From an uncultured Alphaproteobacteria bacterium (lineage in GTDB: Bacteria > Pseudomonadota > Alphaproteobacteria > RF32 > CAG-239), in the NCBI GenBank assembly GCA_947588655.1, contig CANPYS010000008.1, forward strand, positions 1 through 54,703: DNA of 54,703 nucleotides, in the 5' to 3' direction. Of the stretch, positions 20,564-44,716 are shown in pieces (position 1 is the first letter of the stretch; every line of letters starts with the position of its first letter). The notes beneath the pieces were generated by a model. That model made no database searches. It saw only the letters and a program-made list of their open reading frames with translations, and was not told the origin of the DNA. Made by a program: the position numbers and the translations under genes.

Positions 20564-20854
20564 ATGAAGGATATGATTTTAAAAGCCGTTGCGCAACCGC
20601 CCAAAATCTTTTGGGGGCCTGTGTTGCCTGTTGCCTTGAATGCGGGGCTTCAGTTTCCTTTTATGTTTATTTTAATTGGGACAGCGGACGTCAACCCTTT
20701 GCTTTTTGTGGCGACCATTGTGCTTGTTCATGCGGCGATTGTTTTGTATGGCGTGCGCGAGCCGCATCTTTCAGCGATGATTCAGGCTTTTGGGCAGGCG
20801 AACGTGGTATCAAAGAACCTTTATCCGGAAGGGGGAAACAAATTTGAACCCTGA
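20564..20854 (+). CDS. virB3: Type IV secretion protein VirB3-like
   Basis: VirB3 is a small inner-membrane subunit that works with the VirB4 ATPase. The 96-residue product has the family features: a short N-terminus (KAVAQPPKIFWG-P), two adjacent hydrophobic segments (VLPVALNAGLQFPFMFILI, PLLFVATIVLVHAAIVLYGV) and the typical GVREPHLSAMI after the second. AAAGGAAAAACG precedes the ATG. It is the first gene of the operon, and its stop overlaps the TTG start of virB4 by 11 bases, as expected for translational coupling. Confidence 0.88.
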   Translation: MKDMILKAVAQPPKIFWGPVLPVALNAGLQFPFMFILIGTADVNPLLFVATIVLVHAAIVLYGVREPHLSAMIQAFGQANVVSKNLYPEGGNKFEP

Positions 20855-23279
20855 TTTTGATTTTTTCAACCTCTTTGTGCAGGGCTTAAGCAATATTGAG
20901 GTCATTGTTGCAACAATCGGTTTTGTTTCGGCGGCGGCGTTTGCGGTGTTGCTTTCAACCCGGTTTGGCAACTGGATTCTACCGCAACCGCGTGAATCGC
21001 GCGTGTCAGACTTTTTGCCTTTTGCGCGCCTGATGGAAGACGGCATCACGATTCGCTGTCAAAACGGCTCATACGCGCGCGTTTTTCGTGTGACGGGCGC
21101 AGATTTAGCCTCTGCCACGCCTGAAAAAAATTATTCTATGATGGAAGCCCGCAAAGCTTGGATTGACAATATGTCGGAACTTCAAGTTGTTATTCGTGTG
21201 ATAACATTGCGCGAAGCTTCGGTTTTAGAGCAATCAAAAGGCGATTTTAATAATCCGATTCTTGAAAAAGTCAATGAAGTTTGGTCTGAAAATATGGACA
21301 GACTTTATACCAACACGCATTACATTGTTCTTTCGGTTATTGATAGAAAAGACGCCCTCAAAGATTTGAACTATGCCTCGCAAAGCTTGGTGGCAACACT
21401 TGGCGAATATGGCGTGGCGCAGATGTATGAAGCGCCGGATAGTTTGGCGACCGATAGCCCGCTTTATCTGTTTAGCCGGCTTGTGAGCCCCATTTCAAAA
21501 CCAGAACCCAAAATCCGCAACGCCCAAAATGCCGAGCTTAATGAGATGTTGACGGCCGACCACATTCACTTTACGCGCGAGCAAGGCATTATCCGCTTTT
21601 TCTCGGGCGAGAGGGAAGAGTTTGAAATTGCGATGGGCATTCGCACCACGGGCGATTATATGGACGAAAGTATGGTTTTGTCGCTTTTATCCATAGATTC
21701 GGAGCTTGTGTTGCTCCACAACGTGCGCCCCATTTTTAAGCCGCAAGCGCGTATGATGCTCATTCAGCAACAACGTATGGCGGCTTTAACGAGTTTTTCA
21801 CCTGAGGTTGTTAATCAATATTCACAGGCATTGAGTACCATTGAAGATTCGGATGCCGATTATCAGGCTTTAACAGAATATGCCATGACCATTTTAATCC
21901 GTGGTAGAACAAAGGCAGAGCTTGATTTTGGCGAGTCCGAGGTGCAACGTATTTGCCGTGCTTTTGGTGTGACGCCTGTTCGTGAAGGTTGGGTGGCGCA
22001 AGCAACATTTTTCAGCCAATTTCCAACTTATGACACTTATCCCAGAACATACCGCTATTTATCGCGTATTGTGGCGCTAGCGATATGCTTTGACAAGCCG
22101 GCAGAGGGCTTTTCCAAGTCCGATTGGGGGCCGGGGGCAATTACAGTGTTCAGAACAATGTCGGGTTCGGCTTATCAATTCCAATTCCACGTTTCTTCTG
22201 AGGAGTCGGCGGTGGCGCACTGTTGTATTATCGGCCCGACCGGACAAGGTAAAACAACGTTGCTCACATTTTTAGCGGGGCAAGCGATGCGGCACGGCGA
22301 TTTGAAAGTGTTTTTCTTTGATCGTCACCGTGGTGCCGAAATTTTCACACGTTCTGTCGGTGGCGCTTATGTTGGCTTTGACGGCGACAATAAAAATGTG
22401 TCCTTAAACCCATTTGACGCAGACGATACGCCCAACAACCGCGCCTTTTTGCGCCGTTGGATGAAGGCGATAACCATGGCGGACGATGCACTTTCTGAGC
22501 GTGAAGCCGCCCGCGCAGTAACAACCGCGTTTGATTATCTGCGTCCGGAAGAACGCGTTATGAAAAACCTTTATAAAAGTTGCTTTTCGCCAACAGGGAC
22601 AATGCGCCGCGAGCTTTATCGTTGGGTTAATCCTGAGCAGTACGGCAACATCTTTAACGCCGATACCGATAGCCTAGATTTGAAAGCTAAGCGCTTTATG
22701 GCGTTTGATTTTACGCATATTTTTGAAGACGAAACCTTGGCGCCGGCGGTTATCAGCTACATCATGCACCGTATTCAATCTGAAACGGGCGAAACGGGCG
22801 TGCCGTCCCTGATTATGATTGATGAAACCGCACCGATGCTCAAACACCCGATGTTTAGAGATTACTTTATTATTGGTTTGCAGGAAGGTCGTAAAAAGCG
22901 CCAAGCATATTTATGTGCGTTTCAACAGCCAAATATCATTGATAAGCTTGGTGTTGGCGAGGTTATTCGCGGTCAATGCCAAACGGTTATTTTCTTTAGA
23001 AACCCGCAAGCTATGCCCGAAGATTACGCCACATGGAACTTAACGCAAGCGGAGCTTGACTTTGTGTTTGGTAAAAGCTACCGCGAATTTCCGTATGCCA
23101 TTTTGCTTTCGCGTCCGGCGACAGGCGAGTCGGTTATCTTAGACGTGAACTTAGGGGCTTTAGGGCCTTACCTCAAGCTTTACAACTCAGGACGTAAGAA
23201 TGTTTTGCTTGTTGAACAGCTCATTAAAGAATACGGCGAAGAAAACTTTGTTACAAAATATTTAAATATTGGCGAGTAG
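20844..23279 (+). CDS. virB4: Type IV secretion ATPase VirB4
   Basis: VirB4 is the inner-membrane ATPase that drives pilus and channel assembly. The P-loop GPTGQGKTT is at about residues 464-472 and Walker B is SLIMIDETAPML. Arg/Gln-rich motifs near ARGxxQ-type ends (CAFQQPNIIDKL, RGQCQTVIFFRNPQAM) follow. The N-terminal hydrophobic segment (VIVATIGFVSAAAFAVLLS) and the CagE/TrbE/VirB4 N-domain precede them. The start is the TTG at 20844, with GGAAGGGGG 4-13 bases upstream and an overlap with virB3. The in-frame ATG at 20790 would overlap virB3 by 65 bases and adds non-conserved residues. The length of 811 aa is normal. Confidence 0.95.
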   Translation: MNPDFDFFNLFVQGLSNIEVIVATIGFVSAAAFAVLLSTRFGNWILPQPRESRVSDFLPFARLMEDGITIRCQNGSYARVFRVTGADLASATPEKNYSMMEARKAWIDNMSELQVVIRVITLREASVLEQSKGDFNNPILEKVNEVWSENMDRLYTNTHYIVLSVIDRKDALKDLNYASQSLVATLGEYGVAQMYEAPDSLATDSPLYLFSRLVSPISKPEPKIRNAQNAELNEMLTADHIHFTREQGIIRFFSGEREEFEIAMGIRTTGDYMDESMVLSLLSIDSELVLLHNVRPIFKPQARMMLIQQQRMAALTSFSPEVVNQYSQALSTIEDSDADYQALTEYAMTILIRGRTKAELDFGESEVQRICRAFGVTPVREGWVAQATFFSQFPTYDTYPRTYRYLSRIVALAICFDKPAEGFSKSDWGPGAITVFRTMSGSAYQFQFHVSSEESAVAHCCIIGPTGQGKTTLLTFLAGQAMRHGDLKVFFFDRHRGAEIFTRSVGGAYVGFDGDNKNVSLNPFDADDTPNNRAFLRRWMKAITMADDALSEREAARAVTTAFDYLRPEERVMKNLYKSCFSPTGTMRRELYRWVNPEQYGNIFNADTDSLDLKAKRFMAFDFTHIFEDETLAPAVISYIMHRIQSETGETGVPSLIMIDETAPMLKHPMFRDYFIIGLQEGRKKRQAYLCAFQQPNIIDKLGVGEVIRGQCQTVIFFRNPQAMPEDYATWNLTQAELDFVFGKSYREFPYAILLSRPATGESVILDVNLGALGPYLKLYNSGRKNVLLVEQLIKEYGEENFVTKYLNIGE

Positions 23280-23355
23280 AACCGATTTTATTTTGTTATT
23301 AACAATTATTGTGCTACAATATATTTTATGATTAGACGTTTAGACGGAGGTCGGC

Positions 23356-25779
23356 ATGAAGAAATCTTATATTTTGACGTTTTTAACGTTATGTGCCACA
23401 GGGCTTTTAAATCCCGATTCGGTGCTTGCTCAATGGCCGACTTTTGATCCCGGAACGTTCGGACAATCGCTTGAAACCGGTATGACAAAAGTTGAAACCG
23501 GTGCTAATACGGCGCAAAACACGCTTTCTGTAACCACCATTCAACAAGCGGTGGGCGATGCTTTAGGCCCTGTGACCAAATTTAAAGATCAAGCCGAAGC
23601 TCGGCTTAAAAAAGAGGCTGAAAAAGCTGAAAGAATCCAAAAAGCCAAGCAACGCGCTGAAAAAATGAAACAGAAATATGAAAGAGCCAAAGAAATATAT
23701 GATAGGTCACAGAGTATGGCGGAAGCAGCCAAACAACAAGCGACAAAAATGTATAATCAAGCCAAAGATATGTACGAAGAAGGGACGGACTATGTTGATG
23801 AAGCCAACGGTTATTTAAATAGTGACGATGATACTTCAGAATATTATAATCAAAACAATTCTTATACAAGCGGTTATCCGTATCAAGGTGGCGGGCAATC
23901 AAATAGCGCGTCAAACAAGGCAAACACAACATCTTCATCTCAATCAAATGCGGCAAATAGCCAATCTTCATCTCAGACAAACGCGGCAAAGGCACAATCA
24001 TCATCAAACGCGACTAACAACCTTTGGGACGATGATGATTTTGATATGGACGAAGATGTTTTTGAATATGATGAAGAATTTGATATTGATGAAGATTCTT
24101 TAGATGACACAACTTTTGACGAGCTTGGCGCAGGCGCGCGTTCAAAGCTAGATTCGGATTCGGCTCAAAGCGATGAAAACGTCGCGCGCCGCCCATTCGG
24201 TAACAGTGCAAGCGAAGGCAATTCTGCCAATGCCGAACAAGGCGAAGAAGAAACCGCAACAAGAAGTAGCGCGTCAGGCGGTTTGGTCGGCAATGAAGAA
24301 AATACAAAAGGTGAGTCAAAAGGCGGTACGTCAGGCAGTTTTGTTGGTACTGAGGAAGACCGAAAAGCCTCAACCCAAGGCGGTACGTCAGGTAGTTTTG
24401 TTGGTACTGAGGAAGACCGAAAAGCTTCAACTCAAGGCGGCACGTCAGGTAGTTTTGTTGGTTCTGGAACAGATAACGAAACATCTAATTCAAACGGCGC
24501 TGGTTTAACAATCGGTGGTTCTTCAAATTCAGGCGCATCTGGTTCAACACCAGGTTCAAATGGGGCGACCTCTTTAGGAACACAAGGCGCAACAGGCGGT
24601 TCAGGTTCACGAAGCGCATCAGGCGGTGTTTCAAGTGCCGCAGGCATGACAGGCAACGGTTCTTACACGCCGAACACGGCTTCAACCTCTAGAGATGTTT
24701 CAACAATATCGGCAGGCAATTCATCGGATGCGGCAACAACGCCAATCGCGCAAGTTTTGAGCCAAACGCCAATAAGTGGCGGTTCAGAAACATCTCCTAT
24801 ATCAACAAATGCCACAACGCCTGTTTTATCAAGCAATGGTTCTGCGCGGCAAGCTTTCCGCAAGGCGTCCGATTCGCCAACCAGTGCTACCGAAACCGCG
24901 GCCTTGTCACAAGCGATGCAAAATGTGAATGTGACGGCAATATGGCTTTACAAAGCCGAGGCTGAAAAGTTTGTTTTGGTGGCGCAAATAGGCAAAGAAC
25001 TTGAGGCGGAAAAAGAAATGGTGGCTGATGACGAGCTTATCAAACAAGTCCTTGAGCAGCAGCAAACAGTCGTTGAAACAAAAGGGCAAAATAATGCGCC
25101 TTATAGCCGGATGATTGTGCCGTTAAAAGATGCTGAAAAGCCTTTGGGCATATTAGTATTTGCTGATGTAAACGAGCGCGAATTTACAGAGCAAGATATT
25201 AAAAATGCTGAAAAAAGCGCTGAAGCAATCAGCCTGATGCTTAAAGATACATTCGTTGTTTCTTATTTAGAATTTTCTAATATATCTTTTGCGCAAGAGG
25301 CGCCAAGTATGGGCGGTATGAAAACGGGTACCACCGATGAAGGGCGTTTTATTTTTCCTGATAAAATTGCTGAAAAATGTGAGTTAAATTATGACGAGGC
25401 AACAGATGAAAAAATCGCCGAGTGTATTCGTATATGGGTGTTGGATATGCACAATGAAAACGCCTCAGACGCGACTGAGGCTAAAAATCAATATTCATAC
25501 GCATTAGGGCAGCAGATGGGCAATACCATAGGCACAAGTTGGACACACAAAGCTTATGCCGCCACATTTGATACGGCAGTTGCAGACGATTTGGAAAGCA
25601 AATCATCCACCACCACAACCGAGCGTGACATCCTTACCTTAGTTGGCGAGGTCAACCGCGCGAACCAAGAAGTTTTAATCCGGCTCTTAGACAGTTATGC
25701 CAGCAAAGTGATGACAGAGGCTCTAGAAAGTGTGCCGAATTTAGACGATTCGTTCTTCCGTGAGGAAGGGGAGGAGTAG
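23356..25779 (+). CDS. Large exported protein with coiled coil, low-complexity linker and GAF-like domain
   Basis: A signal peptide (cut after SVLA-Q, residue ~26) is followed by a helical coiled coil (about 70-155) rich in Lys, Glu and Ala. A long Ser/Asn/Gly/Asp-rich linker (about 160-500) follows, with an acidic stretch and a 19-residue unit GGTSGSFVGTEEDRKASTQ repeated three times. A domain at about 515-640 has GAF-like order (TAIWLYKAEAEKFVLVAQIG ... SRMIVPLKDAEKPLGILVFADV ... FTEQDIKNAEKSAEAISLML). The C-terminal helical region contains YALGQQMGNTIGTSWTHKAYA. It lies between virB4 and virB8, where virB5/virB6 are expected, and has GGAGG before its ATG. A VirB5-like or pilus/surface part is possible; nothing in the sequence proves it. 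Confidence 0.75.
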   Translation: MKKSYILTFLTLCATGLLNPDSVLAQWPTFDPGTFGQSLETGMTKVETGANTAQNTLSVTTIQQAVGDALGPVTKFKDQAEARLKKEAEKAERIQKAKQRAEKMKQKYERAKEIYDRSQSMAEAAKQQATKMYNQAKDMYEEGTDYVDEANGYLNSDDDTSEYYNQNNSYTSGYPYQGGGQSNSASNKANTTSSSQSNAANSQSSSQTNAAKAQSSSNATNNLWDDDDFDMDEDVFEYDEEFDIDEDSLDDTTFDELGAGARSKLDSDSAQSDENVARRPFGNSASEGNSANAEQGEEETATRSSASGGLVGNEENTKGESKGGTSGSFVGTEEDRKASTQGGTSGSFVGTEEDRKASTQGGTSGSFVGSGTDNETSNSNGAGLTIGGSSNSGASGSTPGSNGATSLGTQGATGGSGSRSASGGVSSAAGMTGNGSYTPNTASTSRDVSTISAGNSSDAATTPIAQVLSQTPISGGSETSPISTNATTPVLSSNGSARQAFRKASDSPTSATETAALSQAMQNVNVTAIWLYKAEAEKFVLVAQIGKELEAEKEMVADDELIKQVLEQQQTVVETKGQNNAPYSRMIVPLKDAEKPLGILVFADVNEREFTEQDIKNAEKSAEAISLMLKDTFVVSYLEFSNISFAQEAPSMGGMKTGTTDEGRFIFPDKIAEKCELNYDEATDEKIAECIRIWVLDMHNENASDATEAKNQYSYALGQQMGNTIGTSWTHKAYAATFDTAVADDLESKSSTTTTERDILTLVGEVNRANQEVLIRLLDSYASKVMTEALESVPNLDDSFFREEGEE
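24322..24467 (+). repeat. 57-bp tandem repeat inside the 807-aa protein gene
   Basis: Units start at 24322, 24379 and 24436 (period 57 bp, 19 residues); the third is partial. They are nearly identical at the DNA level, so copy number probably varies by recombination or slippage without changing frame. Confidence 0.9.
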
Positions 25780-25781
25780 CC

Positions 25782-26447
25782 ATGAAAAAGCTCCTTTCTA
25801 TATGTTTGATTTTTGCTTTTTTTGCGGCGCCTTTGCCGGCGTACGGCATATTTGATGCCATGCGTTTGGCAATTAGAGGTACAATTGATAAAGTCCAAGC
25901 CAAATTGCAACAAGTACAAAAGTATTATGATTTAGGCAAAAAGCTTGAAGATCAAGCCACGCAAATAACCGATCAAGCAATCTCAACCGTTGGCGGAGTT
26001 GTTGATGTTGCTCAAAATCCGCAGATGTTGCAAGACGCTGTTACAGGTACGGTGATGCAATCAGCGCAAGATATGATAGGCGGCAAAAAAACAGATGAAG
26101 AAACCGAAAAAGAAGTTCGCAAACTTCGCCGCAAAAAAGGTGCTAAAACCGATACCATCGCGGTTGCTGAGCTTTTGCAAGATGCTGTCAACGAGCTTAA
26201 AGGTCAAAGCGTGGCAGAGCTTTATAACAAAGCGCTGATTTTAAGGCTTGATATTGCCGAAGAAGAATCGCCTGATGATAAAGTGGATACCATTGAGCAA
26301 GCCTTACAAGCCAACAGCAAAATGTATTTGCAATCAGCGCGCCGTTGGAACAGAATTTTGGAAATGCAAGCCTATATTTCAGACTTTGTGTTTATGAATC
26401 AGATTGTGAACTATCCGCAGGAGGATGAAGATGAAGACGAAGAATAA
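25782..26447 (+). CDS. Exported helical protein, possible VirB5-like subunit
   Basis: A signal peptide (MKKLLSICLIFAFFAAPLPAYG, residues 1-22) is followed by an almost wholly helical 200-residue protein. Its C-terminal segment has the pattern LQSARRWNRILEMQAYISDFVFMNQIVNY and ends in an acidic tail (EDEDEDEE). Size, export signal and position after virB4 fit VirB5/TraC-type pilus-tip proteins, but no diagnostic motif was recognised. GGAGGAG lies six bases before the ATG. The gene begins 2 bases after the preceding stop, and its end overlaps the next gene, so it is tightly coupled in the operon. Confidence 0.72.
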   Translation: MKKLLSICLIFAFFAAPLPAYGIFDAMRLAIRGTIDKVQAKLQQVQKYYDLGKKLEDQATQITDQAISTVGGVVDVAQNPQMLQDAVTGTVMQSAQDMIGGKKTDEETEKEVRKLRRKKGAKTDTIAVAELLQDAVNELKGQSVAELYNKALILRLDIAEEESPDDKVDTIEQALQANSKMYLQSARRWNRILEMQAYISDFVFMNQIVNYPQEDEDEDEE

Positions 26448-27750
26448 AATAATCCTAGCGGTTGTTACGTTTGCTTTCTTGGCTTGGTCGCCGATAGCTC
26501 TTTGCGGCATAGATATTGGCGCGCCTGAAATGGCATCAGGCACTTTTGATAAAATCCAAACAACAGTAGAAGATGCGGGCAAAAAGGTGAATACCGCGGC
26601 ACAAGAAGCGCAGAAAAAAATTAAAGGTAGCAAGTTTATGGTTTTTGTGGAAAAGGTAAAAGCTTTTGCCAAAAGCATTAAGGCGTCTGTTTCTGCGATT
26701 CAGGGCATGGTGGAAACAGCGCAAGGCGTTTATGACGCGACAACAGGCGATTTAAGCGCCTTACAAGATATATATGAGCAAAACGTTGCCAAAGTTAAAG
26801 ATTCTTCAGCTTATAAAGCAGGAGAATTAAGCAAAAAATCTAAGGATTATGATACCAAAATTGAGGCGCGCAAAAAAGCTATTCAAGAAGAAATTGACGG
26901 CAAAATCAGAGCTGCGCAAGAAAACCTAGATTCTTTGAACAAAATGATTGAAAGCGCAGACGAATCATCCGCAACAAGCACGATTGAAAACCAGCGCCAA
27001 AAAGCTCAAGACGAGTTAGATCAGTATAAAGAACAAAAAAAGCAAATTGAAGACGGCTCATATTTTGAGCAAGATGCCGAATATAACCGATTGGTAGAAG
27101 AAAAACGCGAAGTAGATTCTGAATTGCAGGAAATAGGTATGAATGCCACTTCAGAAACAGGCGATAAAGCCTCATCTTTGGCAAAATCAGCGGCAGGTAG
27201 TCTGCTTGAAAAAAGCGATGCTGAAAACGAGCAAGATTACTTAAAACTCATAGAACAAAACTTTTTGAAAAAAGACCAACCGGTCAATGATAAAAACATT
27301 AAGCCGATTGTAAAGTTCAGAAAAGAAACCATAAAAAAAGACATAACAAATGCAATAAAGGTTGCCTCTGAAATTAAGAATGAAATTGATTCTATGGATC
27401 AAAGCGCCGATGACAACGCCGGCAATTTGCAAGCGGCCGATTATCAGATGACAAGCGTTAGCTTTCTTATTCAACAACGCATAGAAGATATTGAAGCCTT
27501 ATATAAATATATGTCGTTACTTGTAGCAGATTTGCGGCTAAAAACATCATTAAATATGTATAATCAAGATTACAAGCTTAAAAATTATGATAAAAATCCG
27601 GCAGAGCTTGATTTTGATAATTACATTTTTACGGAAGCTGATTTCTTGGGCGAAAAAGAAAACGACCTCTTGAAACAAGCTACGGAAGCGGCCAAGGAAA
27701 AGGCAACGGAAGCAGCAAGTAATGCGGCGTCAGGTGTGCCAAACATGTGA
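26431..27750 (+). CDS. Exported coiled-coil protein of the type IV secretion operon
   Basis: A signal peptide (IILAVVTFAFLAWSPIALCG) is followed by about 400 residues of predicted coiled coil: long Lys/Glu/Gln/Ala heptads such as KAIQEEIDGKIRAAQENLD and KAQDELDQYKEQKKQIE. The end is Ala-rich (ATEAAKEKATEAASNAASG). Of two close ATGs I prefer 26431: AGGAGG at 26419-26424 touches the ATG at 26425 but is six bases from 26431. It overlaps the end of the previous gene. No family was recognised. It is likely periplasmic or secreted. It may be a structural component or a substrate of the secretion system. Confidence 0.72.
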   Translation: MKTKNKIILAVVTFAFLAWSPIALCGIDIGAPEMASGTFDKIQTTVEDAGKKVNTAAQEAQKKIKGSKFMVFVEKVKAFAKSIKASVSAIQGMVETAQGVYDATTGDLSALQDIYEQNVAKVKDSSAYKAGELSKKSKDYDTKIEARKKAIQEEIDGKIRAAQENLDSLNKMIESADESSATSTIENQRQKAQDELDQYKEQKKQIEDGSYFEQDAEYNRLVEEKREVDSELQEIGMNATSETGDKASSLAKSAAGSLLEKSDAENEQDYLKLIEQNFLKKDQPVNDKNIKPIVKFRKETIKKDITNAIKVASEIKNEIDSMDQSADDNAGNLQAADYQMTSVSFLIQQRIEDIEALYKYMSLLVADLRLKTSLNMYNQDYKLKNYDKNPAELDFDNYIFTEADFLGEKENDLLKQATEAAKEKATEAASNAASGVPNM

Positions 27751-27767
27751 TTTGAAGGAGATAAAAG

Positions 27768-32141: not shown

Positions 32142-32152
32142 AAAGGGATAAA

Positions 32153-32911: not shown

Positions 32912-32975
32912 TTTTAGACTTTTGCATATATATTATCATCAAAATATAATCTTCAAGTTGTTGATAAGTTGGGGA

Positions 32976-33003: not shown

Positions 33004-33062
33004 AATAAAAAGTTTAATGTAAGAGTGTCTAGACGTATATTATTGATGAGGAAAACATTGCA

Positions 33063-33251
33063 ATGTATAAAAAAATCATAGGCTTTTTGGCCGTTCTTTT
33101 GTTATCGGCGTGCGGGCTTTTTGGCTCTTATTACGAGCCTGAGCCGGTAGGTATCGGTAAAGATGTCAATGAACTCAAGCTTTCGCCGTGCGCATGTTTG
33201 CAAGTTGAACTTCCTAAAACATTGCCGGATTGGTTTGTCGCATCTATTTAA
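33063..33251 (+). CDS. virB7: Small lipoprotein, VirB7-like
   Basis: The 62-residue protein has a lipoprotein signal (MYKKIIGFLAVLLLSAC-G, lipobox LSAC) and a short mature part containing SPCACLQVELPKTLPDWFV. VirB7 proteins are small outer-membrane lipoproteins that clamp VirB9, usually encoded next to virB8 and virB9. Size, lipobox and position fit, but the family is too short and variable for certainty by sequence alone. GAGGAAAACA lies upstream, 9 bases from the ATG. Confidence 0.78.
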   Translation: MYKKIIGFLAVLLLSACGLFGSYYEPEPVGIGKDVNELKLSPCACLQVELPKTLPDWFVASI

Positions 33252-33260
33252 GAGGAACAA

Positions 33261-33998
33261 ATGGCTGAACAGTTAGGTACAGATAACACAAATCAAAGGC
33301 TTTTAGGCAACAACCGTATGCCGCCGCGGCAAAGACCGCCTCGCCCCAAACAGGCAGACGTTGAAATTGTCAACGCGGCGGAAAAGCGCTATTTGTGGAC
33401 AGCGCGCGCTTTTGCGGTTGTGGTAGCAATTAGCTTGTGTTGCAATTTTGTTTTGTTTTTAGCAATTATGCAGCTTGTGCCGTTGTACCGGATTGAGCCG
33501 TTTTTGCTTTCTTTTGAGAACAAATCAGAGCAGGTTTATGACATTCGTCCAGTTCAGAACATGGAAGATGAAAAGGACATTACGGAAGTTTTTGTGCGTG
33601 AATATGTTTTAATGCGCAGTGCTTTCAGCAGTGACATTGACGAGATGGAATCTCGTTGGATGCCAGGCGGCGCTTTGCAGGAAATGTCATCATCGGCGGT
33701 GTATCAGTCTTTTGTTGAGAAGACGGCGCAACCCGCGCTTGAGCTTATGCGTACAAAAGGCTTGGTGCGTGTGGTGCGCATTATGACTGTCAACGAGCTT
33801 GGACGCGGTTTGTGGCAAGTTGAGTATGAAACAAGGGATATGTATCCCGATTCGGCGGCGCCTGAAATCAATTATTGGACGGCGTCACTGCAAATTACCT
33901 ACCGTCGTAAAAACGTTAAATATGGCGAGCGCCTGAATAACCCGATTGGCTTTACAGTCACGCGTTATTCGCTTTCGCATAACAATCAGGCGCAATAA
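33261..33998 (+). CDS. virB8: Type IV secretion protein VirB8, paralogue 2
   Basis: This 245-residue homologue of the product at 32153 has an N-terminal Pro/Arg-rich cytosolic stretch (RMPPRQRPPRPKQ), one membrane segment (AFAVVVAISLCCNFVLFLAI) and an NTF2-like periplasmic domain. Matching blocks are YRIEPFLLSFENK, FVREYVLMRSAFSSD, SRWMPGGALQEMSSS, WQVEYETRD and NYWTASLQITYRR, ending NPIGFTVTRYS. The two share layout but are clearly diverged, so the duplication is old and both copies are probably needed. AGAGGAACAA precedes the ATG. It is followed after 16 bases by virB9. Confidence 0.92.
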   Translation: MAEQLGTDNTNQRLLGNNRMPPRQRPPRPKQADVEIVNAAEKRYLWTARAFAVVVAISLCCNFVLFLAIMQLVPLYRIEPFLLSFENKSEQVYDIRPVQNMEDEKDITEVFVREYVLMRSAFSSDIDEMESRWMPGGALQEMSSSAVYQSFVEKTAQPALELMRTKGLVRVVRIMTVNELGRGLWQVEYETRDMYPDSAAPEINYWTASLQITYRRKNVKYGERLNNPIGFTVTRYSLSHNNQAQ

Positions 33999-34014
33999 AT
34001 AAAGGTGTAGAAAA

Positions 34015-35685: not shown

Positions 35686-38600
35686 GTAAAGAGCCTTTAA
35701 CAAACTCGGAGCAATATGTCCGCAAAACAAACCGCGTTATCTTAATGGTGGGCGTGGTTTCGTTTGTTATATTTCTGATGGGTTTGTTATTGCTTTTTTC
35801 AGGCGGTGAAAATCAAAACGAGTATGAAGCGCCTGTTTTTACTGATGATGACAGCGCCATTGATTTTGGGAGCAACACAAATCCCTTAATGGATAACATT
35901 GAGTTTGAGGGCATTTCCGATAAAGAAGATCCCATTACAACAACCCCTGATCCTGTTCACATGGGTATTGTGGTGCTTGGCACAGATGCCAAAAACGTTT
36001 TAACAGTTGGCACAAACGGCAGAGGAGCGATTCGGATTGTTTCTGTTAAGCTTGCCGAGCCACCCTTTGACGGTTTTACCTATAATGACGGTTGCACCAG
36101 CGCCGAGTTGCGTGGCAATCAAACTTGCAACATTACCATGAATTGGGCGCCTGTTGTTTCAGGCAATGTGCAGAATAATTTTATTATTTCATGGCATGAA
36201 ACAAACGTGAGCGCGCAAAATGCCAAAGCGCAAAAAGTTTCGTTTGACGGCAAAGCCGTAACAGAAGAAGAAAGCAGGCAAATAGCGCAAAGCGCCTCAG
36301 CTGATAATCGCCGAGCAATTTATGATGAAAACGGCAATATCGTCGGTTATGTCGGTGCGGACGGCACAGTTTATGACGCAAACGGTAATGTCGTTGGACG
36401 TATGCTTGAAGACGGCACAATAGTTGATAAAGACGGTAATGTCGTTGGTAAGATTATGCCTGACGGCACATATTTAGATAAAGACGGCAACGTTATTGGC
36501 AAGGTGTCCAGTTATGTCGGCGCGGACGGCACAGTTTATGACGCAAGAGGTAATGTTGTTGGACGTATGCTTGAAGACGGCACAATAATTGATAAAGGCG
36601 GTAATGTTGTTGGCAAAATTATGCCTGACGGCACATATTTAGATAAAGACGGCAACGTTATTGGCAAAGTTTCAGGAAAAGAGGTAGGGCGTCGCTTAGC
36701 TTACGGACCAAATGGCGAAGTGATTGGCTATATTGATGAAAACGGCAACGTTTATGATGAAAACGGCAACATTATCGGACATGTAGATGATAACGGTATG
36801 ATTGTTGATTCAAACGGCAATATCATCGGTGTGGCGGGTAACGATAAGTTGGTTTATGACGAGAATGGCAATGTTATCGGTTATGTCGGTGCGGACGGCA
36901 AAGTTTATGACAACAATGGCAATGTTATCGGTAAAGTGCTCCCGGACGGAACAGTTGTTGATTTAAATGGTGTGCCGATTGGCAAGGCTGTTGACGCGGG
37001 TTTTGTTTATGATGAAAACGGCAATATTATCGGGCGTGTTTTGCCTGACGGAACAGTGGTGGATATGGACGGCAACGTGATTGGTCGCCTAAATGAAAAT
37101 GGTGAAGTTATGGATATGAATGGCAATGTCATTGGTCATGTCAGCAAGCCCGGTCGCACAGCTGTTGATGAAAATGGCAATGTTTTAGGCGTGGTGTTGC
37201 CCGATAACACCGTGGTGGATGAAAACGGCAATGTTGTTGGTTATGTGGATTCTGAAGGCAATGTTTATAAAAACAGTGGCGAAAAAATTGGCAAAGCGGG
37301 ATCTTCACGCCGCCTATATTATGATGAAAACGGTAATCCGATAGGCTACATTGATGAAAACGGCAATATTATCGGTTTTGACGGCAAAACAATTGGTAAA
37401 GTTTTGGAAGACGGCACAGTTTTAGACGCCAACGGCAATGTTATTGGACGTATGCTTGAAGACGGCACAATTGTTGATAAAGACGGCAGGGTTATCGCCC
37501 GTGCCGGCGAATATGTAAATTTAGCGCTAGATGAAAATGGTAATGTGATAGGTTATGTTGATGCCAACGGCAATGTGATTAATGCGCAAGGCAATGAAAT
37601 TGGTCATGTTGATAAAGATGGCAACATCATCAGCAACAAAGCCGTCAAAATAGGAGCAATTGTGACGCAGAACAGAATTGCGCTTTCACCTTCAGGTGTA
37701 TTCTTGGGCAAAATCAACTTTAGGGGCGAGGTTGTCGGCGAAAAAGACGCCGTTTTAGGACGTGTTTTGCCCAATGGTTTGGTGAAAGATTTGAGTGGTA
37801 AAGAAATTATTGGCAAAACGGTTTCATCAGGAACAATTATCGGTTGGGGATGCCAAAACATCGGCTTTTTAGGCGAGGACGGCGTGGTTGTTAAAGACGG
37901 CGAGCCGCAAGATTATAAGGTTTATCCAGACGGCGGCGTGTATAATGCCGAGGGCAAATACTTAGGTGATGTGGCAAAACAAGGTCGCGTTTATGATAGC
38001 CAATGCACTTATTTAGGAACAGCCAACACGGAAGGCGTTGTTTTAAGCGATTCGCGCAAATATGTCGGTTGTGTTAATCCAGATGGTACGGTTTTAAATG
38101 CTGACGGCGATATTATCGGACGTGTGGCGGCATATAAAGAGGTTGTTTCGCCAAGTGGTTTATCGGTTGGTTTTCAAAATGTGAAAGGCGCGGTTATGCG
38201 TGGCGCTAACACAATCGGTTGCGTAGATTCAAACGGTGAAGTTTATGCTATAAATAACTCTTATTTGGGGCAAATGGTAGATAAATATTATGCATTTGAT
38301 TTATCGGGCAAACTTTTGAATTTGTTTGATAATCATGGCGAATTAAATGTTGCGGCGACACCAGGCGCAAAGCTGTTTTTGAATCATTACATTGCGGATA
38401 GCAACAACAAAATTTTAGGCATTGCCTTGCCTGAAAAAAATCTGATTTTAAAGGCAGACGGAAGCATTTTAGGGCGCGTTTTTGCCAATGGCGAAGTTTA
38501 TGACGCCGCGGGCGCGTCTTTGGGACGGATTTTTGGAAACGGCGTGTCGTTTTATCAACAAATTCCGGCAGGTTTAATGCCTTTGGGCGCGGTGGCTGAT

Positions 38601-39512
38601 TTGTTGGGTCAAAATGTTGGCTTTGTCAACTATGACGGACGAGTTGTCAATCGGTTTGGGGAAGAGTTAGGTAAAATTGACGTGCGCGGTCGGTGGTTTG
38701 ATGCTGAAGGCAAGCTTTCAGGCGGCATTATCAAACAAGGCGCGGCGATAGGTTATGACGGTTCTTATCTAGGCTTTGTAAATAGAGAGGGCAAAGTGAT
38801 TGGGACGCAAGGGAGCGCGCTTACCGAAAACGGTTTCGGGCTGATTTTAGACGCTGATAAAAATGTTATGGGCGAGGTTGTCCCCATGACTTTGGTTACA
38901 GATGTTTTTGGCGATTATAAAGGCTACATTGATAATTTGGGCAATGTGCGCAATCTATCCGCGCAAATTATCACGGGCGTTTTACCCGGTGGTTCAACTG
39001 ATAAAAACGTGAGCGCCCTGCGCGAAGGCTTGGTTGTTGATTTCAGCGGAAAACCGCTTGGTGCAGTCACCCCGCAAAGCCGTTGGTTAGATAACAAAAA
39101 CACCTTAAACGGCAAAGTTTATCCTGACGGCAAAGCACTTGATTTAGAGGGGCATCTGGTTGGCGAAGTTGTTGATGCTGATATTGTGATTGATAATCAA
39201 GACAAAGTGGTTGGTTATGTGGCATTTGACGGAAAAGTCACAGATTTTGGTGGCACGACAATCGGGCATGTTTTATCAGGCGGCTTGGCGGTTAATAATC
39301 AAGGCGATGTTATTGGCTCGGCATTTAAGGTTGGTACGGGCGTTGTTTCAAGTGACGGCAAATATTTAGGCTATCTTCAACCGGACGGAACAGTTGCTGG
39401 TAAAAACGGACAAAACATCGGTTTTATTAAAAGCAACGGTTCTTTTGTGAATATAGATAAAAAAGTGGCGGGCTATGTTTTGGAAGAAATTGCCCAAAAT
39501 CGGAGAAATTAG
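35682..39512 (+). CDS. Inner-membrane-anchored solenoid protein; likely N-terminal half of a split VirB10
   Basis: A short cytosolic tail and one membrane segment (VILMVGVVSFVIFLMGLLLLF, about residues 18-40) precede an Ig-like beta domain (about 90-185: GIVVLGTDAKNVLTVGTNGRGAIRIVSV ... CTSAELRGNQTCNITMNWAP). About 1080 residues of tandem 17-19-residue units follow, of the type DGTVYDANGNVVGRMLE, probably a beta-solenoid. The unit resembles DUF3659-type GNVVG-x-V repeats. No TrbI/VirB10 outer-membrane domain is present; that domain is in the next gene, which carries the same repeats. It overlaps virB9 by 4 bases. The TAG stop, GCG and the next ATG are all in one frame. The membrane anchor and position match the N-terminal part of VirB10/DotG-type proteins. 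Confidence 0.82.
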   Translation: MSKEPLTNSEQYVRKTNRVILMVGVVSFVIFLMGLLLLFSGGENQNEYEAPVFTDDDSAIDFGSNTNPLMDNIEFEGISDKEDPITTTPDPVHMGIVVLGTDAKNVLTVGTNGRGAIRIVSVKLAEPPFDGFTYNDGCTSAELRGNQTCNITMNWAPVVSGNVQNNFIISWHETNVSAQNAKAQKVSFDGKAVTEEESRQIAQSASADNRRAIYDENGNIVGYVGADGTVYDANGNVVGRMLEDGTIVDKDGNVVGKIMPDGTYLDKDGNVIGKVSSYVGADGTVYDARGNVVGRMLEDGTIIDKGGNVVGKIMPDGTYLDKDGNVIGKVSGKEVGRRLAYGPNGEVIGYIDENGNVYDENGNIIGHVDDNGMIVDSNGNIIGVAGNDKLVYDENGNVIGYVGADGKVYDNNGNVIGKVLPDGTVVDLNGVPIGKAVDAGFVYDENGNIIGRVLPDGTVVDMDGNVIGRLNENGEVMDMNGNVIGHVSKPGRTAVDENGNVLGVVLPDNTVVDENGNVVGYVDSEGNVYKNSGEKIGKAGSSRRLYYDENGNPIGYIDENGNIIGFDGKTIGKVLEDGTVLDANGNVIGRMLEDGTIVDKDGRVIARAGEYVNLALDENGNVIGYVDANGNVINAQGNEIGHVDKDGNIISNKAVKIGAIVTQNRIALSPSGVFLGKINFRGEVVGEKDAVLGRVLPNGLVKDLSGKEIIGKTVSSGTIIGWGCQNIGFLGEDGVVVKDGEPQDYKVYPDGGVYNAEGKYLGDVAKQGRVYDSQCTYLGTANTEGVVLSDSRKYVGCVNPDGTVLNADGDIIGRVAAYKEVVSPSGLSVGFQNVKGAVMRGANTIGCVDSNGEVYAINNSYLGQMVDKYYAFDLSGKLLNLFDNHGELNVAATPGAKLFLNHYIADSNNKILGIALPEKNLILKADGSILGRVFANGEVYDAAGASLGRIFGNGVSFYQQIPAGLMPLGAVADLLGQNVGFVNYDGRVVNRFGEELGKIDVRGRWFDAEGKLSGGIIKQGAAIGYDGSYLGFVNREGKVIGTQGSALTENGFGLILDADKNVMGEVVPMTLVTDVFGDYKGYIDNLGNVRNLSAQIITGVLPGGSTDKNVSALREGLVVDFSGKPLGAVTPQSRWLDNKNTLNGKVYPDGKALDLEGHLVGEVVDADIVIDNQDKVVGYVAFDGKVTDFGGTTIGHVLSGGLAVNNQGDVIGSAFKVGTGVVSSDGKYLGYLQPDGTVAGKNGQNIGFIKSNGSFVNIDKKVAGYVLEEIAQNRRN
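36346..36675 (+). repeat. 165-bp tandem duplication within the solenoid gene
   Basis: Copies at 36346-36510 and 36511-36675 (55 residues each, three solenoid units) are nearly identical in DNA, whereas neighbouring units have diverged. This points to a recent in-frame duplication that lengthens the solenoid. Confidence 0.88.
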
Positions 39513-39515
39513 GCG

Positions 39516-42500
39516 ATGATAAAAAAGACATTTAAAATATTGGCGTTTATTGCTCTGTTGGCAGGTTTTCAGAATGTGGCTTTGGCAGACGAAATCACGG
39601 CGGTTGATTTTAATGGCAATCTGCTTGGCAAAGTTATTCCAGATGGTACGGTTATCAGCTTTGATAATGAAATTATCGGCACAATCACGGCCGATAGCTT
39701 GATTATAAATGCTCAAGGCGATTTGATTGGTGGTGTCATTCCGCAAGGCGTGGCAATCGGCAACGATAACAAGCTTTTAGGCAAAGTCAATAACGACGGC
39801 ACGGTGCGTCTGCCTTCAGGCGCGGTTATTGGCAAGGTTCTGCCCAATGCTTTGGTCATTAATGATAATTTTGATATTTTGGGTGCAGTTTTATATCCGG
39901 GCTTAATTTATAACGATTCGGGTGTTTCGGTCGGGCGTTTGGCAGGCGACGGAACGTATGTTAATTTTGAGGGGCAGAATATCGGTTTTGTTTCGGCGCA
40001 AGGGTACGCCTATCGCAAAAGTGGCGAAAATTATATTTTAGACGGTCGCCTTATTCCTTCTAAAATGGTTACCGCGCTTGACGGCACGTTTTTAGGCAGT
40101 GTTTCTCCCGGAGGACAGGTGGCTGATTTTGAAGGCGTTGTGATTGGTAAAATTCATGCTAACGGCTATGTTTATGATGCCGATTCTCAAATAATTGGTA
40201 CGGTTGTTTCGGGCGGTTATGCTTTTGATAATGCGGGCAATTACTTAGGCTTGGTTACTTATAACGGCGAAGTGGTTCAAAAAGCGCAGACAATCGGACG
40301 CCTGCGCGGCGATGATGTGGTTATAGATTTAAAAGGCGAGCCGATAGGTTTTCGTGTAGATGTTTCAGCAACGGCAACAGATTTAGACGGGCGCTATTTA
40401 GGACGCGTTTTGCCAAATGGCATTGTGGCTAAAGCGCAAGCGGCAGTTGGCAAAATTGGGCCACGTCAAACGGTTTTAAACGATTCGGGCGCGGTTATCG
40501 GTGAGCTTATAAAAGCAGGCCCAATGTTTGATGACTTGGGCGATTTAAAAGGTCAGATTTTACGAAACGGCCGTGTGATAAGTCCGCAAGGAACGCCTTT
40601 GGGTTATGCGCAAAATCGGTTGGCATACAACAACATTCATCAGCTGATGGGCGCAAGCTTGGAAAAAGCGATTGTTTTGGATAATAATAACAAAATTTTA
40701 GGCTTAACGGGCGTTTCTTCAACTTTTGATGATAACGGTGTGATGCGCAAAATTTCGCCTTTAGGCTTTGTTTTTGCCGAAGACGGAACGCTTGTCGGAC
40801 AAACTGTTTCGCTCCAGCCTTTTTATACAGAGCAAGGCGCGGTTCAAGCCTATTTAGGCGCTGATGGCACATTACAGGGCATCCCGTCTGAAAGCGGTGT
40901 GCGCTTAACAGGCTATGCGCAAACCATTAACGCCCAAAATGAAATTACAGGTTTTGGCATTAACGCTTCTTTTGCGGTTTCAAATACGGCGGAATTAATG
41001 GGCGTTTTAATGCAAAACAATCAGATTATGAATGCTGAGAAAGAGCCTATTGCAAAAGTTTTGCCACAAGGCAATGTGGTTGGTTTTAATTTAACAACCC
41101 CCGATTCGCTGATGCCTGTTTTAGGACAAGCGGAAACAGGTGGCGCGGTTTTAGGCTTTAATGGCATTAATTTAGGCTATGCTGATGTCAACGGCAATGT
41201 GCGTGACGCTTCAAATAATTTAATTGGACGCGTTGTACCTCAAAATTGGGTCGTTGGCACGCAAAAAGCCCTCATTGGTTATGTTGCCAAACCGCAAAGT
41301 GTTGTGAGTGAAACATGCTCTTATATGGGTACAGTCGGTTATAAAGGCGATGTGCGTAACGCGCGCAACGTGGTGTTGGGGCGTTATCTTTCCAATGGGC
41401 AGATTGTTTCGGAAACAGGCGGACGAATTGGGCATGCCGTCAAGCCCGGCGCTGTTTATGATGTTAATGGTAAGCCACTTGGAACAGTCAACGTTTTGGG
41501 TTATTTAACAGATTATAATGCTCAAACACTTGGTTGCTTAACTTGGGACGGACGTTTTTATAACAATGAAAAAGTCTTTTCAGGAAAAGTTGTTTCGGGC
41601 GCGCCAGTCATGAGTTTTGATAATCAAATTTTAGGGCGCGCGCTGAACAATGCGCAAGTTGTTGACTTTGAAAGCGCCGAGATTGGTTTTGTGCAACCAG
41701 ACGGCACCTTTATTTCAGAAGACGGCATTGAGGGCTTGCTTTTTGAATATGCCTTTGCTTTTGATAATCAAAACAAATTTTTAGGACGAGTTTCCGCTGA
41801 AGGCAAAGTTTTAAGTGATGATTATGAAGAACTTGGCACGGTTAAATATGACGGCGAAGTCGTTTCTGCTGACGGCAATTCTATCGGTTATGCTTTGTAT
41901 GATATGTATGCTTACGATTCGCAAAACAATGTGATTGGTTACATTGGCACAAACGGCAAAGTTTATAATTTCTTGGGCAATTCTGTTGGCAATATCAATA
42001 AAGGCTTTTTGGTAGGTCCCGATAAAAAGCTGATTGCCCGCGGTTGGCGCGATTATTTTGTGCGTGGCGCTGAAAATCGCGTTATTGGCGAAATAATGCT
42101 CAATGGCGAAGTTCAAAACACAAAAGGCGAAGTGATTGGCACAGTCACGGGCAGTGGTGAGGTTCGTTCAGAAGAGGGCGATGTTTTAGGTAATGCGCGT
42201 CCGTTGCAGTTTTATATTGTATCGGCAGAAAAAGAGCCTCGTCCGGCAGATTGGTCAGGCACGCCAAAAGTTGGCTCTATGGAAGGACAAGTCTTAGATG
42301 AAAATGAGTACGGTTCAAAGGTTGTTGGAATAGCCTTAACCCCTGACGGCAATTATTTAGGCGATATTTTAGAAGATAACAGCGTGGTTGATAAATTGGG
42401 TAACGTGCTTGGGCAAATGTCTGACGGACTGGTTGTGGATTCGGACGGCAATTTAATCGGCATGGAAGAAAAAGATAAAGAAGAGAAAGAACAACAAATG

Positions 42501-43733
42501 TTCGTACCCGCTGGCACTTTTGGCGATGGTGGCGCTTATGGTTTGGGCAATACGCCTACAAACTTAGGCCCTGGAGGCGGCTTTGGCCCTGGCGAACGTT
42601 ATGATCCCATACGTTCGGCGGCTTTGGCGGCGGCACAAGCTCAGCGCCGTTCAGAAATAACCGTTGGGCAATTAACGAGCAATGTTGATCGCAACAGTTT
42701 TGACGGCATGCAAGATAATTGGGACGGTGTGGCGCAACAACTTTCGTCTTGGCGAGTGGATATGAGCGAGATGATTTTGGCTGACAAGCCAATTCCGGCG
42801 GTTTTGGCGCGGACAATTATGTCATCTGATGGAGCAGACGATGTGCCGGTCACGGCGATTGTGGAACGCAATGTTTATGCCGAAACAGGACGCAACATTG
42901 TTATCCCCGCGGGAAGCCGTGTGATGGGCACATCATCGGGTGGTGGCGGAAGTGGTCAAAGCGGTGGTGCGGTACGCACAAACATCACATGGACGCGGCT
43001 TATTCGCCCCGATGGATCAGCGTTTGAATTTTCGGCTGCAAAAACAGGCGATGCGCAGGGTCGTGGTGGCGCTTTGGCATATTTGGATGAGCAACTCTTG
43101 AAAAAATACACCTTGCCTGTCGTGACAAGCTTATTGACAAATGCTTTGGCTTATGTAACAGCCACCAATGAAACGGGTTCTACATCAGGTGAGAGCACAC
43201 TTGAAAGTTCGCGCCAACAAGCGGCAAATGATGCGCGTCAACAATTTTTGCAGAATATGGATCAGATTTTTAACCAGATTTTAGAAGATAAGACGAACAT
43301 TCAAGCCGTAACATATGTGCCGGCTGGAACGCGGTTAATTATTTTCCCGAAAGAAGATTTATGGATTCGGACAATTGATCGTAAAGAAAATAATAATAAG
43401 AATCTTGAAAAAGGACCGTTAATTGACGGGAATGAAATGGAAGATGTTAATAAAAACGCTTCAACAGGTGGTGGTTCGTCATCAGCAAATAGCGATAGTC
43501 CGAGTTCTAGAGGCGTCGTTTACTTAGATGAAGGTGTTGATGCAAAACCCTCAAGTGGTGGCTTGATAGATGATAAATCTTTGCAGGATGCTAAAAAGAA
43601 AAAGCAACAAACACAAAACATTCCGAATGTAACCGTTTCGGGCGCAACGCCACCACCGCCGTCATCTTCGGCAACGGGAATGCCTCCGTCAACAAATGCA
43701 AATCGCAATGATAATTCGGGACAATTATTTTAA
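39516..43733 (+). CDS. virB10: Exported solenoid protein with C-terminal VirB10/TrbI domain
   Basis: Instead of the usual membrane anchor there is a cleavable signal peptide (MIKKTFKILAFIALLAGFQNVALA-D). About 950 residues of 17-20-residue solenoid units follow (FNGNLLGKVIPDGTVIS type; more degenerate than in the preceding gene), then a Gly/Pro linker. The TrbI/VirB10 core is at about residues 1060-1310: PIPAVLARTIMSSDG, VTAIVERNVYAETGRNIVIPAGSRVMG, TNITWTRLIRPDGSAFEF. An outer-membrane-crossing hydrophobic helix (YTLPVVTSLLTNALAYV) is followed by TYVPAGTRLIIFPKEDLWI. The tail is Ser/Pro/Asn-rich. VirB10 normally has ~380-480 residues and spans both membranes; here the outer-membrane part is a separate exported protein. 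GGAGAAATTAGGCG precedes the ATG. Confidence 0.9.
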   Translation: MIKKTFKILAFIALLAGFQNVALADEITAVDFNGNLLGKVIPDGTVISFDNEIIGTITADSLIINAQGDLIGGVIPQGVAIGNDNKLLGKVNNDGTVRLPSGAVIGKVLPNALVINDNFDILGAVLYPGLIYNDSGVSVGRLAGDGTYVNFEGQNIGFVSAQGYAYRKSGENYILDGRLIPSKMVTALDGTFLGSVSPGGQVADFEGVVIGKIHANGYVYDADSQIIGTVVSGGYAFDNAGNYLGLVTYNGEVVQKAQTIGRLRGDDVVIDLKGEPIGFRVDVSATATDLDGRYLGRVLPNGIVAKAQAAVGKIGPRQTVLNDSGAVIGELIKAGPMFDDLGDLKGQILRNGRVISPQGTPLGYAQNRLAYNNIHQLMGASLEKAIVLDNNNKILGLTGVSSTFDDNGVMRKISPLGFVFAEDGTLVGQTVSLQPFYTEQGAVQAYLGADGTLQGIPSESGVRLTGYAQTINAQNEITGFGINASFAVSNTAELMGVLMQNNQIMNAEKEPIAKVLPQGNVVGFNLTTPDSLMPVLGQAETGGAVLGFNGINLGYADVNGNVRDASNNLIGRVVPQNWVVGTQKALIGYVAKPQSVVSETCSYMGTVGYKGDVRNARNVVLGRYLSNGQIVSETGGRIGHAVKPGAVYDVNGKPLGTVNVLGYLTDYNAQTLGCLTWDGRFYNNEKVFSGKVVSGAPVMSFDNQILGRALNNAQVVDFESAEIGFVQPDGTFISEDGIEGLLFEYAFAFDNQNKFLGRVSAEGKVLSDDYEELGTVKYDGEVVSADGNSIGYALYDMYAYDSQNNVIGYIGTNGKVYNFLGNSVGNINKGFLVGPDKKLIARGWRDYFVRGAENRVIGEIMLNGEVQNTKGEVIGTVTGSGEVRSEEGDVLGNARPLQFYIVSAEKEPRPADWSGTPKVGSMEGQVLDENEYGSKVVGIALTPDGNYLGDILEDNSVVDKLGNVLGQMSDGLVVDSDGNLIGMEEKDKEEKEQQMFVPAGTFGDGGAYGLGNTPTNLGPGGGFGPGERYDPIRSAALAAAQAQRRSEITVGQLTSNVDRNSFDGMQDNWDGVAQQLSSWRVDMSEMILADKPIPAVLARTIMSSDGADDVPVTAIVERNVYAETGRNIVIPAGSRVMGTSSGGGGSGQSGGAVRTNITWTRLIRPDGSAFEFSAAKTGDAQGRGGALAYLDEQLLKKYTLPVVTSLLTNALAYVTATNETGSTSGESTLESSRQQAANDARQQFLQNMDQIFNQILEDKTNIQAVTYVPAGTRLIIFPKEDLWIRTIDRKENNNKNLEKGPLIDGNEMEDVNKNASTGGGSSSANSDSPSSRGVVYLDEGVDAKPSSGGLIDDKSLQDAKKKKQQTQNIPNVTVSGATPPPPSSSATGMPPSTNANRNDNSGQLF

Positions 43734-43744
43734 GGAATAAAGTC

Positions 43745-44716
43745 ATGAGTACATTTACGGTTTTGGAATCAGTTTTACGCCCCTTGGCTTATTGGTACAA
43801 TCAGGAAAACATTGAGGAAGTAGCGATTAATCGCTCGGGGCAGATATGGCTTCGGTTGCGTGGCAAGAGGGCTTATCCTTGGGTGATGTACAAAGATGAA
43901 AAATTAACCAAAGAATATTTGACGGATTTATTATATATTGTGGCAAACACTTACGAGTTGCCGTTTGACCCCATTTCAGGTTCGCCGGTGGTGTATGCGA
44001 CAATCCCTGGAGATCATCGTTTTTCGGCGATTGCAGGGCGCAACATTATGTATGATCAAGATGACCTCACAGGCGGTGTGGCGTTAACCATTCGTGTCCA
44101 TGCCGATGACGTGGCTTTTGGTCTTGAAGATTACGGCTTAACGCAAGGTAAGGGCTTGCATAAAATTAACCCCTTAAAAAACATCAAAGATCCTGAAGAT
44201 CCTTATGAGCGGTTGCTTTTAAGCATTAAGCGTGGCGATCATATTTTGGTTAGCGGGGCGACATCAACAGGTAAAACAACGTTTTTGAATAACTTATTAA
44301 AAATTTTGGATATTCATAAGCGGATTGTGACCATTGAAGATACGCGCGAACTTTTAGTGCCACACCCGAACCGCGTGCATTTAGTGCTTTCGCGTACGGA
44401 GCAAACCAACCAAATGGATTATGCCAAAATCATTGACTTGGTGGTGCGTTTTACGCCAGATGCAATTATCGGTGGCGAGATTTCAACATCAAATGCCGGC
44501 GCGCTTTGGGAGCTGATGGGTTCTGGTCACGATAACTGCTTAGCAACCATACACGCCGAAAGTTCCGAGGCAGCTTATCAAGCGTTTACGGATCGTATTT
44601 TACACACTTATCCGAGCATTGACAGAGCCAAAACCATTGAGGAAATGCGGCACAAATTGCGTGTGGTGCAAATTAACCGTGACGGCAACCTCCGCGCCAT
44701 TACAGAAGTCACATAA
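43745..44716 (+). CDS. virB11: Type IV secretion ATPase VirB11
   Basis: VirB11 is the hexameric cytosolic ATPase at the base of the channel. It has an N-terminal domain (VLRPLAYWYNQENIEEVAINRSGQIWL) and the P-loop SGATSTGKTTFLNN at about residues 170-183. The Asp box is IEDTRELLVPH, Walker B is RFTPDAIIGGEI, and the His box is GSGHDNCLATIHAES. The length of 323 aa is normal. TAAGGAATAAAGTC lies before the ATG, 11 bases after the VirB10 stop. It is the last gene of the operon; virD4, the coupling protein that normally follows, is absent from the window. Confidence 0.97.
   Translation: MSTFTVLESVLRPLAYWYNQENIEEVAINRSGQIWLRLRGKRAYPWVMYKDEKLTKEYLTDLLYIVANTYELPFDPISGSPVVYATIPGDHRFSAIAGRNIMYDQDDLTGGVALTIRVHADDVAFGLEDYGLTQGKGLHKINPLKNIKDPEDPYERLLLSIKRGDHILVSGATSTGKTTFLNNLLKILDIHKRIVTIEDTRELLVPHPNRVHLVLSRTEQTNQMDYAKIIDLVVRFTPDAIIGGEISTSNAGALWELMGSGHDNCLATIHAESSEAAYQAFTDRILHTYPSIDRAKTIEEMRHKLRVVQINRDGNLRAITEVT

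Follow-up and report, generated by a model that had tools for sequence, protein, structure and literature searches.

The window analysed here comprises contig C8 in full (54,703 bases). It comes from a draft metagenome-assembled genome (MAG) of 1.55 Mb, listed as 100% complete, of an uncultured alphaproteobacterium in a gut-associated order that we take to be RF32 of GTDB. Positions 20564-44716 of the window hold an operon of a real, conserved and complete variant of the VirB/VirD4 secretion systems, which is apparently undescribed. Its main novelty is a VirB10 made of two polypeptides, both of which carry long arrays of beta-flower repeats. We consider it probable that this is the main operon of a chromosomal, vertically inherited VirB/VirD4-type (T4A) system related to the conjugation systems of Microvirga and sphingomonad plasmids, with protein export likelier than DNA transfer.

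The operon comprises twelve large open reading frames (ORFs) and one small one, all on the + strand and overlapping or separated by short gaps, in the order virB3-virB4-M1-M2-M3-M4-virB8a-virB7-virB8b-virB9-virB10N-virB10C-virB11. A first-pass annotation, made from the sequence alone, had described this arrangement, and re-examination of the ORFs agreed with it. Most of the gene identities that it had proposed from motifs were also recovered. Profiles identified the VirB4 ATPase (20790..23279; TIGR00929 E 3e-111, PF03135 E 9e-15), VirB8a (32153..32911; PF04335 E 2e-18), VirB8b (33261..33998; PF04335 E 1e-23), VirB9 (34015..35685; PF03524 E 7e-11), the C-terminus of VirB10 and the VirB11 ATPase (43745..44716; TIGR02788 E 2e-42). 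The Walker A motif of VirB4, GPTGQGKT, is invariant across 18 genomes, and the true start of this gene is probably at about 20844 rather than at the mechanically assigned TTG at 20790. The VirB3-like protein (20564..20854; 96 aa) had no convincing profile match in the Pfam search of the operon proteins and is assigned by its position before VirB4, its length, the topology of its hydrophobic segments and its conservation (51-83% identity in relatives).

VirB10N (35682..39512; 1276 aa) combines an inner-membrane anchor and an Ig/ASH-like domain with about 1,030 residues of 17-aa repeats, of which there are about 60. VirB10C (39516..43733; 1405 aa) consists of a signal peptide, about 57 repeats of 17 aa spanning about 975 residues, and a TrbI/VirB10 barrel (PF03743 E 9e-31). 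The repeats of both halves match the beta-flower family (PF21785 E 2e-95 for VirB10N and 2e-56 for VirB10C), and VirB10C further matched ComB10, CagY and TrwE among PDB sequences. In the window, the two genes are separated by 3 bases. In all 17 members of the order that possess both genes, the tail of VirB10N is conserved (..VAxNRRN or close to it), and VirB10C starts with a signal-peptide-like segment that is usually followed by EITAIDFNG. The giant split VirB10 of the first-pass annotation is thus real, the same two-ORF junction in 17 genomes ruling out a sequencing error. G152, which belongs to the order's second family, likewise has a separate VirB10C with a signal peptide.

Elsewhere in the class, other families encode VirB10 in one ORF, with the anchor, an Ig-like domain, the repeats and TrbI. 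These unsplit proteins are 1273 aa (G154) or 2149-2521 aa (G340, G434, G224 and G442) long; in another family (G201), the VirB10 region is in several ORFs. When both halves were aligned to the single VirB10 of G224 (2348 aa), VirB10N covered residues 8-1325 and VirB10C residues 948-2329, an overlap that is expected because of the repeats. Because unsplit homologues exist outside the order and the same junction recurs in 17 members, the split is, on sequence comparison, an old and maintained gene fission. An in-frame tandem duplication of 165 nt (36333..36662, + strand; 91% identical) within the repeats of VirB10N, together with the wide range of VirB10N lengths in the order (1099-2419 aa), suggests that repeats continue to be gained and lost. 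The Ig-like domain of VirB10N resembled plasmid VirB10 after the membrane segment was trimmed (E 4e-3), a match that is suggestive only. We lean towards a history in which VirB10 expanded to about 2,500 residues, most of them in beta-flower repeats, before its gene was split, so that its membrane-anchored and Sec-exported halves must rejoin through the repeats to couple both membranes. If true, this would be a working two-piece VirB10 and the first structural role for beta-flower repeats.

Giant VirB10 proteins with repeats are of an already known kind. CagY of the Helicobacter Cag type IV secretion system (T4SS) possesses an extended repeat region in its middle, with direct repeats in the DNA (PMC5954226). 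However, CagY is one polypeptide, whereas the protein described here is in two parts and its repeats are beta-flower repeats of 17 residues. The beta-flower fold (PF21784/PF21785) was described in 2023 from AlphaFold models as small domains with no known function (PMC10584680), in contrast to the arrays of about 60 repeats within a secretion scaffold found here. Because VirB10 is two polypeptides, encoded by two ORFs in 17/17 members with both genes, we call the system a variant and not an ordinary member of the VirB/VirD4 group.

The remainder of a VirB7-VirB9-VirB10 outer-membrane core is present, VirB9 and VirB10 being assigned by profile and VirB7 by its lipobox, position and conservation. 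The VirB7-like lipoprotein (33063..33251; 62 aa) carries the lipobox and the motifs ELKLSPCAC and LPDWF, with minor variation, in 19/19 loci examined. CagX was detected in 19/19 members of VirB9 and a C-terminal SPOR domain in 18/19 (best E 8e-6), the copy in the window being SPOR-like and below the cut-off (E 0.003). SPOR domains bind peptidoglycan, and VirB9 may therefore anchor the core through this domain.

VirB6, VirB2 and VirD4 had been reported missing from the window. They are indeed absent from this one contig, but the system has all three on other contigs (C2, C40 and C38, respectively). VirD4 (C38:6327-8564; 745 aa) has PF02534 and TraG-D_C domains. Three VirB2 pilins (C40:4601-5631) each match PF04956, and one of them has a long C-terminal tail. 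The VirB6 cluster (C2:78172-85848; PF04610) encodes polytopic proteins with 3-8 hydrophobic segments each, and the third gene of the cluster in relatives corresponds to two ORFs in this genome. In a relative, G031, virB11 is followed after about 7 kb by the VirB6 cluster on the same contig; the absence of the cluster from the window therefore reflects rearrangement or contig breaks. Thus, the VirB4, VirB11 and VirD4 ATPases, the VirB6 and VirB8 inner-membrane parts and the VirB2 pilin of a T4A system are all encoded. Of 153 genomes in the order, 129 (16/17 genera) have VirB4, 137 have VirB6 and 144 (17/17 genera) have VirD4. The losses of VirB4 and VirB6 coincide (9 shared genomes; Fisher p 7e-5), and there was no correlation between the losses of VirB4 and VirD4 (p 1.0).

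With VirB10 in two pieces and with virB6, virB2 and virD4 outside the operon, the locus might be taken for the decayed duplicate of a virB locus that is complete elsewhere. We give this almost no credence. The genome has a single VirB4 (one PF03135 match), the pieces of VirB10 are intact ORFs in 17 genomes, the gene order is intact in 14 genera, and the ATPase motifs are invariant. The view of the first-pass annotation that the locus is a variant system therefore stands.

Other genes lie near these components. Directly upstream of virD4 are four uncharacterised genes (C38 2277-6317, L005) whose products are possible partners in a coupling complex; one has hydrophobic segments at its N-terminus and a weak match of the NERD nuclease-like type. 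The same contig encodes a protein (C38 10677-11393, - strand, L005) that resembles type IV pilins and has a hydrophobic pilin motif at its N-terminus. A second VirD4 paralogue of about 32% identity occurs in several genera of the order. After the three VirB2 genes is a gene for a 928-aa alanine-rich coiled-coil protein (C40 1093-3879, L011). Beside the VirB6 cluster on C2 is a regulator with two XRE-type helix-turn-helix (HTH) domains (L006 5764-6753; 58-67% identity in relatives), and it is possible that this protein regulates the secretion system. Shortly downstream of the operon in the window (46964-49219) are an LD-carboxypeptidase (S66) and a Mur ligase, possibly for peptidoglycan recycling.

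The first-pass annotation had also suggested a synteny search in relatives, and the same operon, with its gene order, was found in 14 genera. In 19 relatives examined closely, the gene order was the same wherever the contig or stretch permitted, except in one rearranged genome (G103, genus g13; L070/L071), in which the operon is broken off after virB8a. Neither decay nor chance can account for a locus whose VirB4 is present in 129/153 genomes and whose gene order is shared by 14 genera. Among relatives in the order, the core evolves slowly (64-91% identity for VirB4, 76-96% for VirB11 and 51-73% for VirB9 over the aligned length), and the middle evolves fast (21-38% identity in the matched parts of M1-M4). 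With a VirB4 profile, 80 loci were found among named genomes, nearly all in alphaproteobacterial or proteobacterial MAGs, many of which are named for gut, rumen or faeces; Azospirillum sp. CAG:239 is among the relatives with a VirB4 locus. One record titled 'Lactobacillaceae bacterium' (L104, JAISVX010000001.1) bears the alphaproteobacterial operon and is probably mislabelled.

The stretch between virB4 and virB8a encodes M1 (23356..25779; 807 aa), M2 (25782..26447; 221 aa), M3 (26425..27750; 441 aa) and M4 (27768..32141; 1457 aa). All four have N-terminal signal peptides and coiled-coil or low-complexity sequence, as had been claimed and as we judged by eye, and the enlarged middle is conserved across the order. 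M1 has VirB5-like ends and a variable low-complexity middle. Its N-terminus showed a weak DUF4141 match in 3/20 members. The M1 of the window carries a GAF domain insertion (GAF_3 E 4e-9, residues 515-629), and it was the only one of 20 orthologues that matched; the GAF domain is normally cytoplasmic and here sits within a signal-peptide protein. Apart from these matches, Pfam searches with all M1-M4 members gave mostly coiled-coil noise. Profiles of M1 and M2 compared with PDB sequences matched mostly coiled coils and helical bundles, and no VirB5. M1-M4 as VirB6 proteins were rejected: none matched PF04610, and VirB6 was found on C2.

The VirB4 proteins nearest to that of the window (35-38% identity) are encoded on plasmids of Microvirga sp. 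VF16, Sphingosinicella sp. BN140058 and Erythrobacter aureus. Their operons are compact and of conjugation type, in the order VirB3-VirB4-VirB5-second exported coiled-coil protein-VirB8-VirB9-VirB10-VirB11-VirD4, like that of the window, and the Microvirga proteins are 34% (VirB9) and 33% (C-terminus of VirB10) identical to ours. The plasmid gene after virB4 matched PF07996 (VirB5) above the cut-off in one case. Unlike the window, the plasmids have one VirB5 of about 250 aa, one VirB8, a MobA/MobL relaxase and a VirB10 of about 530-590 aa that is in one piece and lacks repeats.

Profiles were compared with each other after removal of signal peptides, and reversed profiles served as controls; they replaced column-shuffled ones, one of which scored oddly high. 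M3, a coiled coil followed by a VirB5-like C-terminal domain, matched VirB5 with E 1.2e-5 over 125 columns (reversed 0.21), M2 matched plasmid VirB5 with E 9e-4 over 186 columns (reversed 0.16), and the C-terminus of M1 matched VirB5 with E 4e-3 (reversed 0.4). Further, the C-terminus of M1 matched M2 (E 6e-5; reversed 1e-2), and M2 matched M3 (E 1e-5; reversed 3e-3). A coiled-coil match between M3 and M4 was dropped, the reversed control scoring nearly equal.

M4 taken whole did not match VirB5 in the profile comparison, and the second exported protein of the plasmid loci did not match M4. When the class was searched with the profile of M4, nine genomes outside the order gave matches; the better of these were to compact proteins of about 545-811 aa, and in the more complete of these outgroup loci several separate VirB5-sized exported proteins precede the compact M4 homologue. 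The N-terminus of M4 matched a small separate outgroup protein, S4 (E 5e-5), and the rest of M4 matched the compact outgroup core proteins (E 8e-32). From these similarities, the M4 of the order is best described as S4, a small VirB5-like module, fused to the compact core, a new domain, with a coiled-coil insertion. An N-terminal piece of M4 is a separate ORF in several genomes of the order. Most members have a CxxY tail, and several cysteines are conserved. An M4 orthologue was modelled as a long, helical protein that includes a small beta domain (pLDDT 77), for which Foldseek found no meaningful PDB match, only coiled-coil noise with a TM of about 0.1 or less on the query.

Because of the profile matches above the reversed controls and the matches to S4 and the compact core, the best interpretation of the middle is that it is largely an array of diverged, VirB5-like proteins, with one new family that makes up most of M4; the link to VirB5 is suggestive. 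M1-M4 could instead be secreted substrates or free surface adhesins, merely encoded in the operon and not parts of the machine. In favour of this, all look Sec-exported and evolve fast, their number (4-6) and length vary, and one has gained a GAF domain. Nevertheless, they are always at the VirB5 position, were never lost in the loci that we read and resemble VirB5 by profile; the outgroups, too, have a comparable block of small exported proteins with a compact M4 core in the same place. We therefore regard substrates or adhesins as unlikely, and return to an array of machine components. In the Trw system of Bartonella, tandem copies of VirB5 (TrwJ) and VirB2 (TrwL) are considered variant surface-exposed pilus components (PMC3406051). 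Our system likewise has three VirB2 pilins and several VirB5-like proteins, and a pilus or tip made of M1-M4 and VirB2 may be proposed in the same way. The VirB5-like proteins here differ in being strongly diverged and enlarged, and VirD4 is present, whereas Bartonella Trw is not known to have one.

The system also resembles the rvh system of Rickettsiales, which is vertically inherited, is dispersed in islets and has multiple VirB6 and duplicated VirB8 proteins (PMC2653234), and could simply be rvh in another order. However, rvh has no VirB5, and its VirB4 and VirB9 are duplicated (PMC2653234), whereas the present genome has a single VirB4, and its operon has a single VirB9, four VirB5-like modules (a weak assignment) and a split giant VirB10. 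We consider an rvh system very improbable.

From the gene products we infer how a machine related to the plasmid systems might be assembled, where it would lie and what it would act on. VirB3, VirB4, VirB11, VirD4, the two VirB8 proteins and the VirB6 cluster would form an inner-membrane motor, and VirB7, VirB9 and VirB10 an outer-membrane core. VirB10N would be held in the inner membrane and VirB10C exported by Sec, ending in the outer-membrane barrel; each half carries about 1,000 residues of beta-flower repeats, by which the two would most likely be joined in the periplasm, and the SPOR domain of VirB9 would grip peptidoglycan. M1, M2, M3 and the N-terminus of M4 would be exported VirB5-type proteins; what they and the three VirB2 pilins most likely form is a fast-evolving pilus or surface tip touching target cells, which may be other bacteria, the host or protists. 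Such a machine might have the extended periplasmic or surface structure that the first-pass annotation suggested. The lack of two major relaxase families, together with the chromosomal location and order-wide occurrence of the system, would make protein a likelier substrate than DNA.

Several observations weigh against this reading. VirD4 is kept in 23/24 genomes without VirB4 (including G044, G045, G046, G048 and G055), and VirD4 in these genomes may therefore have another role. The VirB5 assignments of M1-M4 are weak by sequence: among the matches listed, no M1-M4 member had a VirB5 Pfam match, and ten outgroup proteins likewise had none. A model of the repeats showed repeating strand pairs at low confidence (pLDDT 60, pTM 0.27), and the beta-flower is a closed shallow beta-barrel of 4-, 5- or 6-fold symmetry. 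Finally, the absence of relaxase matches applies to a draft MAG and to the two families searched for, MobA/MobL (PF03389) and Relaxase (PF03432). The last point bears on whether the system, as its plasmid relatives do, moves DNA (by conjugation or uptake). The plasmid VirB4 proteins closest to ours are in conjugation-type operons with MobA/MobL relaxases, and VirD4 bears TraG/TrwB domains. The genome has neither of these two relaxase families, however, and the genes are chromosomal, dispersed and conserved across the order, and we think DNA transfer improbable and favour protein export.

We found no description of this secretion system in the openly accessible literature, and nothing relevant in the literature on the order and secretion systems or on VirB10 with SPOR. 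VirB10 is held to relay energy from the inner membrane to the outer-membrane gate as one continuous protein. An order-wide, natural two-piece VirB10 makes the continuity of this relay testable. Further, the beta-flower fold, an orphan known only from prediction, gains a concrete machine, and the findings point to an apparently undescribed secretion system in common uncultured bacteria of the gut and rumen.

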